Source: Parcubacteria group bacterium GW2011_GWA2_43_13
Lineage (GTDB): Bacteria > Patescibacteriota > Patescibacteriia > UBA9629 > GWA2-43-13
DNA: 50,314 nt
Reading direction: 5' to 3'
Assembly (NCBI GenBank): GCA_000999025.1
Contig: LCFM01000006.1
Span: forward strand, 1 to 50,314
Below are positions 11,797-46,764 of the stretch, in pieces. Position numbers and translations under genes: made by a program. The notes beneath the pieces were generated by a model that had not been told where the DNA came from, searched no databases, and saw only the letters and a list, made by a program, of their open reading frames with translations. Each line of letters begins with the position of its first letter. The first letter of the stretch is position 1.

Positions 11797-11890
11797 ATAT
11801 ACTATTTCCTTTCTTGTCCGCCAGAGATGGATTGAAACTGCTTGCGAAATGTTCTTCGCTTACGCTCGAATATTTCGAACCAGTTTTAAC

Positions 11891-11919
11891 AAAAAAACGA
11901 CTCTGGCATTCCATAGTCG
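11891..11919 (-). terminator. attenuator hairpin in the rplJ leader
   Basis: Read on the minus strand, CGACT and AGTCG (with TGG/CCA above one mismatch) form a hairpin followed directly by seven T. It lies between the L10-binding element and the rplJ start, where a transcription attenuator would act. Confidence 0.65.
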
Positions 11920-11947
11920 ACCTTTCGCCCAACACTAAAGATGGTTG

Positions 11948-12012
11948 AACGCTCCTCGGTAAGGTTAGGTTATTAAGCTCTTTTTGTGCGAGCCCTTACG
12001 GTCTACGGAATA
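11948..12012 (-). promoter_or_regulatory. L10 ribosomal-protein leader element
   Basis: On the minus strand the leader contains CGTAGACCGTAAGG, then GCTTAATAACC and CCTTACCGAGGAG. This order and these words match the L10 leader motif (CGTAGAC...GGCTTAAT...CCTACCGAGG) that binds L10 or the L10-L12 complex. It lies between the rplJ promoter and the attenuator hairpin. Confidence 0.8.
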
Positions 12013-12019
12013 CGAGAAT

Positions 12020-12048
12020 ATAGTATCAAATAATAAAAATACTGTCAA
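12020..12048 (-). promoter_or_regulatory. rplJ-rplL promoter
   Basis: On the minus strand a perfect TTGACA (12048-12043) and TACTAT (12025-12020) are separated by 17 bases, immediately before the L10 leader. Confidence 0.85.
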
Positions 12049-34880: not shown

Positions 34881-34910
34881 TGTAGAGACGGGGTTAACCC
34901 CGTCTCTACA
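34881..34910. repeat. family 1 palindrome, minimal 30-bp copy (intergenic)
   Basis: A perfect 30-base palindrome whose left half is TGTAGAGACGGGGTT. The copies inside thrS (44211) and miaA (46105) differ from it at only two or so positions. Confidence 0.9.
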
Positions 34911-35328: not shown

Positions 35329-35453
35329 GTAGAGACGCCCCCTGCCTGCCCGCCTTTGGCGGGGGGCGTCTCCGTAAGACGTAACGTAACCCGAGCTGTT
35401 TGAGACGCGCCCCTCAAAAGGCGGACAAAGTAGAGGCACGTCTCTACAACGAC
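35329..35453. repeat. family 1 palindromic elements, composite
   Basis: A first unit runs from TAGAGACGCCCCC to GGGGGCGTCTC (35330-35372). A second, degenerate one runs from GAGACGCGCCCCT to GCACGTCTCTACA (about 35401-35453). No gene is seen here. Confidence 0.7.
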
Positions 35454-42472: not shown

Positions 42473-43645
42473 ATGGCACTTCCTCAACTTCACCCTGCTA
42501 CCTATCGTATTATCGCGCTTGTATTTTTAGTGCTCATTATTGTCGGAGCGCTTGCCGTTGTCCATTCAGCTCTTGCACGCGCAACAATCGAAGTAACTGC
42601 AAAAGCAGACAGAACAACTGCAGTGTCAACCCTCGCTGTTCAATTTTCACCTACTCCCTCACCCGACACCTCGCAACCGCTGACAGGAAAACTCATTTCA
42701 GTATCGGCCTCAAAAACAGAATCATTTTCACCTCAAAGCGATGGAAAAAAAATCCCTGATAAAGCGCGGGGAATGGTTGTATTCGTCAATACATCATCAC
42801 TGCCACAACCTCTGCTTGCAACAACCCAACTCCAGCTCACTGCCGGAGGCATGATTTATCGAACAGAAAAATACGTCGTTGTTCCGGCGAAAGGAGAAAT
42901 TGAAGTTGAGATTACGGCGGATGAAGAAGGAAAAGAAGGTGAACTACAAGCCCCTGCACAATTGTCTGTCGTCAAGCTCAATGCGTCTCGACAAAAAGAA
43001 ATTTACGCGGATGTGCGAAAATCAATCACTGGCGGAGAAAAAACCATTGCAGTCCTGTCTCAAGCGGATTTTGACGCGGCGCAAGAAAAAATCACCGCAC
43101 TTCTCAAAGAAGACGCGAAAAAGAAACTCTCTCAAACAATCGGATCAGAAGTGACTGATGATCATGTGATGTATGGCGATGTTAAAGTAACATCAGAACA
43201 AAAAATTGGAGATGAAACAGATACATTTGTCATGACAGGCGCGCTGGATGCGGAAATGCCATCGTTTTCTCAAGATGCGATTCTTGCAGTCGCAAAGCAG
43301 AATTACACGTCAACGCTCCCGGCGGGATATTCATTACTGGGATTCAACGATACGAGCTTAAAATGGAATGTGGAATCATTGAACGAACAAAAAACAGAAG
43401 CAACTCTGCGCACCGAACTTGAAGCGTTTACAACGCTAACGCCTAATGCCGAAATCATCAATCCCCAAGAATTAGTCAACTTGGATGTTGAAAAAATCAA
43501 AGAAAAACTCTTGTCAAACCCGAATGTTTCTTCAATCCGTGTTACATTTTGGCCGTTTTGGAGAACAACCGCGCCAGCGTTTGCAAACCGAATTACTGTA
43601 ATAATAACAAGCAGTGATCAGCCAGAAACGACGACTGACAATTGA
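42473..43645 (+). CDS. membrane-anchored baseplate-J-like domain protein
   Basis: 390 residues. An N-terminal transmembrane helix (IIALVFLVLIIVGALAVVHSAL) is followed by a long exposed region. Its centre (KARGMVVFVNTSSLPQPLLATTQLQLTAGGMIYRTEKYVVVPAKGEIEVEITADEEGKEGEL) resembles baseplate J/gp47 domains found in CPR surface proteins. The C-terminus ends in a threonine-rich tail. It starts 17 bases after dnaE. Its function is unknown; a surface-structural role is inferred. Confidence 0.7.
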   Translation: MALPQLHPATYRIIALVFLVLIIVGALAVVHSALARATIEVTAKADRTTAVSTLAVQFSPTPSPDTSQPLTGKLISVSASKTESFSPQSDGKKIPDKARGMVVFVNTSSLPQPLLATTQLQLTAGGMIYRTEKYVVVPAKGEIEVEITADEEGKEGELQAPAQLSVVKLNASRQKEIYADVRKSITGGEKTIAVLSQADFDAAQEKITALLKEDAKKKLSQTIGSEVTDDHVMYGDVKVTSEQKIGDETDTFVMTGALDAEMPSFSQDAILAVAKQNYTSTLPAGYSLLGFNDTSLKWNVESLNEQKTEATLRTELEAFTTLTPNAEIINPQELVNLDVEKIKEKLLSNPNVSSIRVTFWPFWRTTAPAFANRITVIITSSDQPETTTDN

Positions 43646-43670
43646 CAAAAAAAACTGTTTTCCCTACACT
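43642..43670 (+). promoter_or_regulatory. thrS promoter
   Basis: A perfect TTGACA (43642-43647) and TACACT (43665-43670) are 17 bases apart. Transcription would start about 43677, exactly where the T-box stem begins. Confidence 0.85.
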
Positions 43671-43676
43671 CTATTA

Positions 43677-43851
43677 TGTACACGTTTGCACGCCGACTCA
43701 CCACCGACGGAGTGTACAAAACAATTCATGAAAAGAATGAGCGGTCTCTCGCAGGGAGACAATTGAGGTGGAACCTCCGACAGTTACATTGTTGGACCTC
43801 AAGCGATATTTATTATCCTTCAAGATAATGCCTATCGCTTGAGGTTTTTTT
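43677..43851 (+). promoter_or_regulatory. compact T-box riboswitch controlling thrS
   Basis: The leader starts with a closing stem TGTACAC (43677-43683) / GTGTACA (43712-43718). Its short loop carries CACCACC, giving a threonine ACC specifier. A small hairpin GTCTC/GAGAC follows. The T-box word sits in GAGGTGGAACCTCCG (43765-43779); its TGGA would pair with a tRNA ending UCCA, as expected if tRNA-Thr has U as discriminator base. It ends in a terminator with a perfect 13-bp stem (43796-43808 with 43833-43845) and seven T. Stem I is far shorter than in standard T-boxes. This is an inference from motifs, but all parts are in order. Confidence 0.8.
43796..43851 (+). terminator. T-box terminator before thrS
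   Basis: The stem ACCTCAAGCGATA with TATCGCTTGAGGT is perfect, with an inner TTATC/GATAA hairpin, and a T-run follows. Uncharged tRNA-Thr would favour the alternative antiterminator. Confidence 0.88.
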
Positions 43852-43877: not shown

Positions 43878-45680
43878 ATGAATATCGAAACTCAACGCCA
43901 TTCACTGGCGCATATCATGGCATATGCCGTGCAAGAACTGTTCCGCGATAAAGGGGCTGTCTCTTTTGGTGTCGGCCCGGTGATTGAAAATGGATGGTAT
44001 TATGACATTCACACTGAACAGCCGATAACAGAAAATGATCTTAAACGCATCGAAAAAAAAATGCTCGATATCATTAAACAAAAAGTATCCTTCACTCGCA
44101 CCGAACTCCCTATTGACGACGCAATAATACAGTTTAAAAAAATGAACCAGCAGTATAAAGTTGAACTCCTGCATGACCTTAAAACACATGGCACAACAAA
44201 CCTAAACGAGCGTAGAGACAGGGTTAACCCCGTCTCTACAGACACCGTATCAATCTATACAACTGGCGATTTTGTAGACCTGTGTCGTGGCCCGCATGTT
44301 GAAAACACCCAAGAAATTACTGTTGCATTCAAACTCACATCCCTTGCCGGCGCATACTGGCGTGGAGATGAAAAAAATCCTCAACTCCAACGCGTATATG
44401 CTGTGGCATTTGAAACACAGCAAGAACTTGATGACTATCTCCATATGCGCGAGGAAGCCATAAAACGCGATCATCGAAAAATCGGAAAAGAACTCGGGCT
44501 CTTTGTATTTTCCGATCTTGTGGGCCCAGGGCTTCCGCTGTACACGCACCATGGGATGACCATTCTTTCAGCTCTTAAAAACTACTCCCGAGAACTCCGA
44601 ACAAAAATGGGATACCAAGAAGTACAAACCCCGCAAATCAATAAAGCTGCGCTTTTCCATACTTCCGGCCACTATGATAAATACAAGCAAGATATGTTCC
44701 GCGTGGTGTCAAATTACACAGATGAGGAATATTACCTCAAACCAATGAACTGTCCCCAGCACACCCAACTCTACGCATCGCGTATGAGAAGTTATAAGGA
44801 TTTACCTGTCCGCATTGCTGACTTTTCTCTGCTGTATCGCGATGAAAAACCAGGCGAACTTTCAGGACTCACTCGATTACGATCATTTTCCCAAGATGAT
44901 TCGCACTGTTTTTGCCGGGAAGATCAAATTGAGCATGAATGTTCGCTCTTGTTAAACGCCATTCAAGAGGCAATGCAAACCTATGGCATGAACTATTCAA
45001 TACGGTTATCATTGCGGGATGAATCACAAAAAGAAAAATATTTAGGTGATGATAAAATCTGGGAAACATCACAAAATGCTTTACGCTCAATGTTAAAACA
45101 GAGTGGAATTAATTATGAAGAAGCTCCAGGAGAAGCGGCGTTTTATGGACCTAAAATGGATTTACTCGCGCATGACGCATTAGGCAGAACATGGCAACTT
45201 TCCACTATTCAACTTGATATGAACATGCCCGAAAGATTTGGCTTGGAATATATTGATGAAGATGGATCGCAAAAAACACCGCTCATGATCCACAGCGCAT
45301 TAGTCGGATCACCTGAACGATTTTTCGGTATTTTGATTGAACACCACGCAGGCGCATTTCCGGTCTGGCTCTCGCCTGTTCAAGTTGCCATTCTGCCGGT
45401 GAGTGAAAAATTCCTTGATAATGCACGGAAACTTTCATTGCACATGCAATCTACAAGTATTCGCGTTGAGATTGACGAATCCAATGAATCAGTCGGTAAA
45501 AAAATCCGCAATGCCGAAACATCAAAAATCCCCTATATGCTTGTACTTGGCGAGAAAGAAGCACAATCAGACACTCTTGCAGTGCGCAAGCGTGGAAGCA
45601 AAGAAACCATACCCCTTTCTCGTGATGAATTCTGCGCAATGATACAAGAAAAAATCAGAACAAAATCTTTAGAAGTGTAG
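43878..45680 (+). CDS. thrS: threonyl-tRNA synthetase lacking the TGS domain
   Basis: 600 residues. The protein starts directly at the N2 editing domain (HSLAH at residues 8-12, DLCRGPH), without the usual N-terminal TGS domain. The class II core has MNCPQH for zinc, RSFSQDDSHCF, and the C-terminal anticodon domain (PVQVAILPVSEKF). It charges tRNA-Thr. A 30-bp family 1 palindrome (44211-44240) is inserted in frame as RRDRVNPVST in the editing domain, just before the strand VSIYTTGDFVDLCRGPH. It is controlled by the T-box upstream. No ribosome site is obvious. Confidence 0.96.
   Translation: MNIETQRHSLAHIMAYAVQELFRDKGAVSFGVGPVIENGWYYDIHTEQPITENDLKRIEKKMLDIIKQKVSFTRTELPIDDAIIQFKKMNQQYKVELLHDLKTHGTTNLNERRDRVNPVSTDTVSIYTTGDFVDLCRGPHVENTQEITVAFKLTSLAGAYWRGDEKNPQLQRVYAVAFETQQELDDYLHMREEAIKRDHRKIGKELGLFVFSDLVGPGLPLYTHHGMTILSALKNYSRELRTKMGYQEVQTPQINKAALFHTSGHYDKYKQDMFRVVSNYTDEEYYLKPMNCPQHTQLYASRMRSYKDLPVRIADFSLLYRDEKPGELSGLTRLRSFSQDDSHCFCREDQIEHECSLLLNAIQEAMQTYGMNYSIRLSLRDESQKEKYLGDDKIWETSQNALRSMLKQSGINYEEAPGEAAFYGPKMDLLAHDALGRTWQLSTIQLDMNMPERFGLEYIDEDGSQKTPLMIHSALVGSPERFFGILIEHHAGAFPVWLSPVQVAILPVSEKFLDNARKLSLHMQSTSIRVEIDESNESVGKKIRNAETSKIPYMLVLGEKEAQSDTLAVRKRGSKETIPLSRDEFCAMIQEKIRTKSLEV
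44211..44240. repeat. family 1 palindrome inserted in frame in thrS
   Basis: The 30 bases begin CGTAGAGACAGGGTT and continue AACCCCGTCTCTACA. They start at codon 112 and are read RRDRVNPVST. Apart from two bases the sequence equals the intergenic copy at 34881. Confidence 0.9.
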
Positions 45681-45750: not shown

Positions 45751-46764
45751 ATGTCAAAAAAACTCCAAAAACTCATTGCAATTGTCGGTCCCACAGCATC
45801 AGGGAAAACTGATCTCGCATTTGCATTGGCAAAAAAATTCAATGGATATATTATCTGCGCTGATTCCAGAACTATTTATAAAGAAATGAATATCGGAACT
45901 GCCAAACCCTTTGCATCACGAATGGCTCACGAAACCTCACCCTCCCCTCTCCTTCTAAAAGAGCGGGGGGCGAATGACTCACGAACAGGGAAAATTGAAG
46001 GTATTGAGCACTACGGGCTTGATCTTATCGCCCCTACAGAATATTTTAGCGCGGCGCAGTTTAAAGAATACGCGGAAAGTATTATAGATATGCCACTCTT
46101 GCCTTGTAGAGACAGGGTTAACCCTGTCTCTACAAAACACTGCTCTATTATCCCCTTCCTCGTTGGCGGCACTGGTTTATATATTTCGGCCGTCGTTGAC
46201 AACCTCTCATTCCCAGACGCGCCTCCAAACAACAATTTTAGAAAAGAAAAAGAAGTCCTTAGTATTGATACGCTTGTTAACGATCTCCTTAAAAAAGATC
46301 CAGATGCGCAGGATGTTGTTGATCTCAAAAACAAACGTCGCGTTATCCGCGCGCTTGAATGTATTGAACACACAGGAACCGCATTCAGCCGGCATTACAC
46401 ACAAAACCCGCAAAAATATGATGTCCTCCTGCTGGGCGTAAAACGCGATCGTAAAGAACTTTACGACCGAATCAACACACGCGTTGATGAAATCATGAAA
46501 CAAGGATTTTTAGAAGAATTTGAACTGCTGTATACAACATACAGGTGCGCTGTTCCTGGCATGACAGGCATTGGTTATCGCCAATTCTGTTTATGGAAAC
46601 AAGGAAAACTCTCTCTTGAACAAGCAATAGAAAAATTCAAACAAGGAGATCGTAATTTAGCAAAACGCCAAATGACGTGGTTTAAACGCGACAACCGTAT
46701 TCATTGGATCAACAACACCCAACAAGCCAGTTGTCTTATAGAACCTTTTCTCTCATCATTTTAA
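45751..46764 (+). CDS. miaA: tRNA dimethylallyltransferase
   Basis: 337 residues. The P-loop GPTASGKT is at 13-20, followed by DSRTIYKEMNIGTAKP, FLVGGTGLYI, and the C-terminal MTGIGYRQF and RNLAKRQMTWFKRD. It prenylates A37 of tRNAs reading UNN codons. Two repeat insertions lie in frame. A family 2 element (45934-45973) falls after NIGTAKP, giving TSPSPLLLKERG. A family 1 palindrome (46105-46134) gives CRDRVNPVST just before the IIPFLVGGTGLYI strand. Both fall in loops relative to typical MiaA. Confidence 0.95.
   Translation: MSKKLQKLIAIVGPTASGKTDLAFALAKKFNGYIICADSRTIYKEMNIGTAKPFASRMAHETSPSPLLLKERGANDSRTGKIEGIEHYGLDLIAPTEYFSAAQFKEYAESIIDMPLLPCRDRVNPVSTKHCSIIPFLVGGTGLYISAVVDNLSFPDAPPNNNFRKEKEVLSIDTLVNDLLKKDPDAQDVVDLKNKRRVIRALECIEHTGTAFSRHYTQNPQKYDVLLLGVKRDRKELYDRINTRVDEIMKQGFLEEFELLYTTYRCAVPGMTGIGYRQFCLWKQGKLSLEQAIEKFKQGDRNLAKRQMTWFKRDNRIHWINNTQQASCLIEPFLSSF
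45934..45973. repeat. family 2 palindromic element in miaA
   Basis: CCTCACCCTCCCCTCTCCTT and the following CTAAAAGAGCGGGGGG share the family 2 words. It is read in frame as TSPSPLLLKERGA, a different frame from the prmC copies. Confidence 0.65.
46105..46134. repeat. family 1 palindrome inserted in frame in miaA
   Basis: A perfect 30-base palindrome with left half TGTAGAGACAGGGTT. It begins on a codon boundary (codon 119) and is read CRDRVNPVST, the same frame and peptide as in thrS. Confidence 0.92.

Follow-up and report, generated by a model that had tools for sequence, protein, structure and literature searches.

Can a transcriptional T-box riboswitch read its tRNA with a Stem I that ends at the specifier codon? 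The question is raised by the leader of thrS in Parcubacteria group bacterium GW2011_GWA2_43_13, which lies within a 50,314-nt stretch of contig LCFM01000006.1 (the whole stretch analysed, hereafter the window). Most descriptions of T-boxes come from Gram-positive bacteria. For those acting on transcription, a long Stem I gripping the elbow of the tRNA is described as a requirement, and the same review (PMC7583486) poses as an open question whether a T-box can do without a K-turn. A preliminary description of this leader had read it as a reduced transcriptional T-box. The analysis reported here makes it very likely that this is a T-box riboswitch controlling transcription, whose Stem I is naturally truncated and of the ultrashort type; its function is inferred from sequence alone.

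Anatomy of the thrS leader

The leader is preceded by an unnamed ORF (42473-43645) and followed by thrS, both flanking genes lying on the same strand as each other. It contains, in order, a promoter, a Stem I of about 40 nt, Stem III, an antiterminator and a terminator, as listed here with the evidence for each in brackets (R1 is a covariance model described below).

43642..43670, + strand: sigma-70-type promoter, TTGACA-17 nt-TACACT (10/12 consensus positions)
43678..43717, + strand: miniature Stem I (register by homology with the relative G001)
43700..43702, + strand: specifier codon ACC (Thr), followed by A, complementary to the anticodon GGU of tRNA-Thr (sequence; equivalent ACC in relatives' loops)
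43739..43743, + strand: GAGCG, the RRRNG purine motif 5' of Stem III (sequence; motif per PMC7778990, PMC7583486)
43744..43760, + strand: Stem III, GUCUCUC-GCA-GGGAGAC, 7 bp, followed by AA at 43761-43762 (folding, R1 model match)
43763..43802, + strand: antiterminator, A1 TTGAGG/CCTCAA and A2 TCCGACA/TGTTGGA (RNAfold, R1 model match)
43769..43775, + strand: T-box bulge UGGAACC, its UGGA complementary to the UCCA 3' end of tRNA-Thr (sequence, fold, tRNA genes)
43796..43851, + strand: intrinsic terminator, 13-bp stem and U7 (folding of the leader)
43878..45680, + strand: thrS, threonine--tRNA ligase, 600 aa (TIGR00418, 666.6 bits vs cut-off 383.65)

Since about one site comparable to the promoter is expected by chance per 600 bp, support for it comes from its position. 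The presumed transcription start and the U-tract are about 175 nt apart, and 26 nt separate the end of the terminator from the thrS start codon. Both flanks of the T-box signature RRRNG-Stem III-AA described in PMC7778990 and PMC7583486 are met around Stem III. When the RNA was cut before the terminator, RNAfold returned exactly the 7-nt bulge between A1 and A2 of the antiterminator, TTGAGG[TGGAACC]TCCGACA/TGTTGGACCTCAA (43763-43802). The minimum free energy fold of the full leader is the terminator (z -4.9 vs 200 shuffles), a perfect 13-bp stem ACCTCAAGCGATA/TATCGCTTGAGGT (43796-43845) with seven T at its end. CCTCAA (43797-43802) is common to both structures, which are mutually exclusive. 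The first A2 pair is U43776-A43796 and not the conserved G.U wobble; among 33 relatives this pair is G.U in 21 and U-A in one. The wobble is a conserved detail that varies in relatives too, and its absence does not exclude the leader from the T-boxes. The preliminary description had placed a promoter, a short Stem I with ACC, the word TGGAACC and a perfect 13-bp terminator in order within about 175 nt. This arrangement held, with the estimated length of Stem I slightly corrected from about 42 to about 40 nt.

A miniature Stem I with an apical ACC

An automatic hairpin rule requiring a stem of at least four perfect pairs fails to pick the window's own Stem I because of a C.A mismatch, and the homologous hairpin of the nearest relative, G001, was needed to read it. 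In the resulting register a base helix GUACAC/GUGUAC is followed by an internal loop GUUUGCAC/GGA, an upper helix GCCG/CGAC containing the mismatch, and a 9-nt apical loop ACUCACCAC, giving GUACAC-GUUUGCAC-GCCG-ACUCACCAC-CGAC-GGA-GUGUAC; the hairpin of G001 reads GUAUG-UGUUUAU-GUCG-CCUCACCAA-CGAC-CAG-CAUAC. The letters of the base helix have changed relative to G001 (GUAUG/CAUAC) and its pairing has been kept. RNAfold favours an alternative register, UGCAC-G-CCG/CGG-A-GUGUA, at -9.0 vs -4.1 kcal/mol for the homologous one. ACC is apical in both candidates; the exact register is uncertain. A second ACC directly follows the specifier (43703-43705).

The view that the hairpin has no room for the distal elbow-gripping loops was also upheld. 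A 40-nt Stem I leaves no space for the IDTM, and a pattern scan for it (AGAGA ... UGxRA) gave no match in the window leader, other matches being near chance level. On inspection by eye for a K-turn, the 3' GGA is present and the 5' strand GUUUGCAC lacks UGA; UGA/GGA is retained in some relatives whose loop has 9 nt. Only 26 nt (43718-43743), with one weak hairpin, lie between Stem I and Stem III, and there is therefore no Stem II (S-turn, IIA/B pseudoknot).

tRNA genes and other T-boxes of the same genome

ARAGORN, run on the tRNA loci of the 971-kb genome, gives three tRNA-Thr genes (GGT, TGT and CGT), each with a U discriminator. This is what UGGA requires, so the fourth-base match of the T-box is met, and the earlier proposal that TGGA fits a tRNA-Thr with a U discriminator is confirmed. 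Beyond that proposal, the genome also carries two T-boxes of standard size, long and miniature forms thus occurring side by side:

G000:C7:37460-37694 (L225): T-box before proB (glutamate 5-kinase), TGGT, tRNA-Pro discriminator A
G000:C2:37207-37498 (L226, L153): T-box before trpE (anthranilate synthase I), TGGC, tRNA-Trp discriminator G

Both genes were named by reading their translations and not by a family scan. The fourth bases of both T-boxes match their tRNA discriminators, and both contain IDTM-like segments (AGAGA ... GGUGAAA / GGCUGAAA).

Detection by covariance models

The Rfam T-box model RF00230, a search with which had been proposed in the preliminary description, gave no match at E<=10 in the window or in the 261-bp leader. 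We ascribe this to insensitivity of the model, because relatives with a long Stem I score well: matches before thrS in L032, L034 and L053 have E values of 1e-9 to 2e-4. T-boxes are common in the CPR class, a point absent from the preliminary description, which named Firmicutes and Actinobacteria as their best-known hosts: matches at E<=0.01 occur in 124/286 genomes, and the gathering cut-off is exceeded in only six of the 286. A second model, R1, was built from the Stem III and antiterminator regions of 33 relatives with the window left out. It finds a single match in the 50-kb window, at 43735-43802 in the thrS leader (45.9 bits, E=4.8e-9), and this is its best match in the whole genome. Across 380 genomes drawn from the phylum, R1 matches at E<=1e-4 in 88.

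Truncated T-boxes before thrS in relatives

A T-box is present in 37/84 thrS upstreams of relatives in this CPR class. Most of these lack a long Stem I and carry the specifier in a hairpin loop, so that the truncated form, a point not anticipated in the preliminary description, is the usual one before thrS in the class. Since the word TGGAACC was used in selecting the 37, constancy of its A is evidence only in the thrS leaders found through Rfam, where A occupies the fourth position in 24/24. In Stem III and the antiterminator, 15 of 16 pairs covary.

The commoner type of specifier hairpin has a 7-nt loop, NN-ACC-RR (mostly CU-ACC-AA), and is preceded by a conserved GAUUG. Its six closing pairs are 98.2% paired across 46 distinct sequences, against 51% when shuffled and no more than 49% when the register is slid, and all six show two-sided changes (covariation 1.235 vs 0.25 shuffled). 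These hairpins were selected for having three or more stem pairs, which biases the inner pairs towards pairing; neither the outer pairs nor the range of pair types depends on that selection. A second covarying helix, in which letters 5' of GAUUG pair with letters 3' of CUAA, brackets the specifier hairpin together with another hairpin and reaches at least 4 bp in 33/40 leaders (permuted mean 6.6, maximum 15), the best-pairing CUAA site being taken where several exist. A rarer type has a 9-nt loop, NNNN-ACC-AA/U, and is found in G001, G093, the Saccharibacteria locus L074, the Doudnabacteria locus L099 and others; the Stem I of the window belongs here. The comparison of relatives' thrS leaders suggested in the preliminary description thus shows stems that covary, the specifier hairpin included. 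The anatomy of the window leader, its codon and discriminator match, and homology and covariation in relatives are established by these data.

The specifier codon follows the downstream gene

Downstream genes of the relatives' T-boxes were recognised from protein sequences, and the loops carry cognate codons: ACC before thrS, GAC/AAC before aspS, GUC before valS, GGC before glyS, AUC before ileS and CCC before proS. Hairpin-loop ACC occurs in 58/69 thrS leaders vs 0/13 aspS leaders, all 13 of which have GAC or AAC. The automatic rule finds a cognate codon in 75/94 leaders, compared with a mean of 46 and a maximum of 57 for permuted labels (5000 permutations); the rule is strict, and the majority of valS and glyS loops, which do not satisfy it, were read by eye.

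Within the aspS leaders (loci L156, L159, L160, L161, L165, L168, L169, L235, L238, L239, L243, L252 and L258), those with AAC come from genomes in which an asnS over the cut-off is absent (9/9), and those with GAC from genomes in which asnS is present in three of four (Fisher p 0.014, AAC vs GAC). This pattern would be predicted were the AspRS of genomes without asnS to serve tRNA-Asn as well. On this inference, the aspS specifier seems to report which tRNA limits a non-discriminating AspRS. Covariation with the aspS discriminator is only partly clean: UGGU faces a G discriminator, a wobble at best, in G011 and G279.

T-boxes also lie in relatives before trpB-like (tryptophan synthase beta chain) genes (L170, L234, L250, L281), and further ones before trpD-like and argG-like genes. 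As these genes were judged by eye, we suggest only tentatively that amino-acid biosynthesis is under putative T-box control in CPR genomes.

Other elements in the window and genome

A near-perfect palindrome of about 30 bp, TGTAGAGACAGGGTTAACCCTGTCTCTACA, has about 20 copies in the 971-kb genome, against none for a reversed control pattern. Copies in the window lie at 44214-44241 (in thrS), 46107-46134 (in miaA) and 34886-34905; those in thrS and miaA are in frame and each encode RDRVNPVST. The palindrome resembles the palindromic elements that are found inserted within protein-coding genes of Rickettsia. A ribosomal protein L10 leader (RF00557) is found at 11883-12026 on the - strand with 47.3 bits, over its gathering score. 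G+C-rich, strong palindromic hairpins of the GACGCCCCTCCGCC type, present in more than one copy, occupy 2440-2492 and 35352-35427, and the weak Rfam sRNA matches at these two sites are likely due to chance.

Proposed mechanism and alternative explanations

Binding of tRNA, sensing of its charge and readthrough are inferred, without data on expression or binding behind them. In the proposed mechanism, the hairpin of about 40 nt would be transcribed and present the ACC in its apical loop to the tRNA-Thr anticodon GGU, picking that tRNA. The UCCA end of an uncharged tRNA-Thr would pair with UGGA in the bulge, stabilising the antiterminator and allowing readthrough into thrS. On a charged tRNA-Thr the amino acid would block UGGA:UCCA pairing, the 13-bp terminator would form and thrS would be off. 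The tRNA would be gripped mainly at its two ends, with neither IDTM loops for the elbow nor a recognisable K-turn, and with no S-turn of Stem II to cover the codon-anticodon duplex.

Besides this lack of data, the C.A mismatch, the weaker homologous register, the U-A pair at the start of A2 and the lack of an Rfam match stand against the T-box reading. The first three also speak for its most probable rival, a degenerate remnant whose shrunken Stem I no longer binds tRNA, leaving the leader a fixed attenuator. So do the shortness of Stem I, its competing folds and the lack of a visible IDTM, Stem II or K-turn. However, the loop surrounding the specifier, NCUCACCA, and its closing helices are kept between this genome (G000) and G001 while the letters of the base helix have changed, many other T-boxes with a short Stem I retain cognate codons and paired stems, and the window's antiterminator and terminator are still perfect. 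We consider a remnant unlikely.

Leader-peptide attenuation, in which a ribosome stalled at ACC ACC in a short ORF would shift the leader to the antiterminator, is less probable still. Such an ORF exists (ATG at 43676, 50 codons, five Thr including ACC ACC), but no Shine-Dalgarno is seen before the ATG, and the ORF is not conserved: any in-frame start with the specifier occurs in only 30/59 relatives, whose specifier-frame ORFs range in length from 7 to 87 and have mostly one to three Thr. Nor does a leader peptide account for the UGGAACC bulge, the flanks of Stem III or the single hairpin-loop codon that is specific to each gene. With the ORF unconserved and the T-box features unexplained, this explanation was rejected. 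An ordinary terminator of the upstream gene with a chance TGGAACC is all but ruled out, since, common as terminators between genes are and although the element sits between two same-strand genes, a promoter lies ahead of it, the relative-based R1 match (E=4.8e-9) speaks against a chance word, and the agreement of codon, bulge and discriminator would all need to be chance.

Identification of the leader as a T-box is therefore firm and very likely correct, its mechanism being inferred. The reduced transcriptional T-box of the preliminary description is supported by every refutation check that could be run computationally, and tRNA-dependent readthrough remains an inference. A bolder reading, which could as readily prove wrong as right, is that a minimal T-box acting on transcription is in use throughout the Patescibacteria lineage. 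Its tRNA-like hairpin, with a loop of 7 to 9 nt, would kiss the anticodon, so that only the anticodon and the 3' end hold the tRNA; IDTM, Stem II and a canonical K-turn would all be lacking. The thrS loop, typically CU-ACC-AA, would be arranged like an anticodon loop, and in the 7-nt type the specifier hairpin would have a second hairpin as its neighbour within a junction that the covarying GAUUG ... CUAA helix closes. To our knowledge, no other T-box has this 7-nt-type Stem I architecture.

If it works, a transcriptional T-box without a long Stem I or Stem II would show how little RNA suffices for reading both a tRNA and its charge, and would bear on the question of K-turn-less T-boxes raised in PMC7583486, for which this leader and its relatives offer natural test cases. 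It would also reveal control by amino-acid starvation in organisms about whose gene regulation almost nothing is known. The Rfam cut-off misses most of these switches, and regulation in the CPR is therefore under-annotated. Small T-box parts are useful for synthetic biology.

Comparison with known T-boxes

The T-box family itself is already known, as is an ultrashort Stem I from the translational ileS T-boxes of Actinobacteria. No paper joining T-box riboswitches to the Candidate Phyla Radiation or Patescibacteria, and no account of a transcriptional, Stem II-less, hairpin-specifier form across Patescibacteria, was found in the literature searched, which excludes most subscription papers and so does not prove novelty.

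With the class I transcriptional T-boxes (RF00230, Bacillus subtilis type) the window leader shares Stem III with RRRNG...AA, the 7-nt UGGNACC bulge, an A1/A2 antiterminator opposed to an intrinsic terminator, a specifier codon and a cognate aminoacyl-tRNA synthetase gene downstream. It differs from them in that Stem I ends at the specifier, which lies in an apical and not an internal loop, in the absence of IDTM, Stem II/IIA-IIB and a recognisable K-turn, and in having no Rfam match. The short and ultrashort Stem I T-boxes of actinobacterial ileS (Sherwood et al. 2015, via PMC7583486) likewise have a truncated Stem I without IDTM. The actinobacterial ultrashort form also has its specifier in a terminal loop. 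These T-boxes control translation, and a short Stem I makes Stem II indispensable (PMC7583486); in contrast, the window leader has a transcription terminator with U7, no anti-Shine-Dalgarno sequestrator for translational control, no Stem II, threonine as its amino acid and a CPR host. The glycine glyQS T-boxes, which naturally lack Stem II (PMC7583486), are transcriptional like the window leader, but they retain the long Stem I with IDTM and K-turn.
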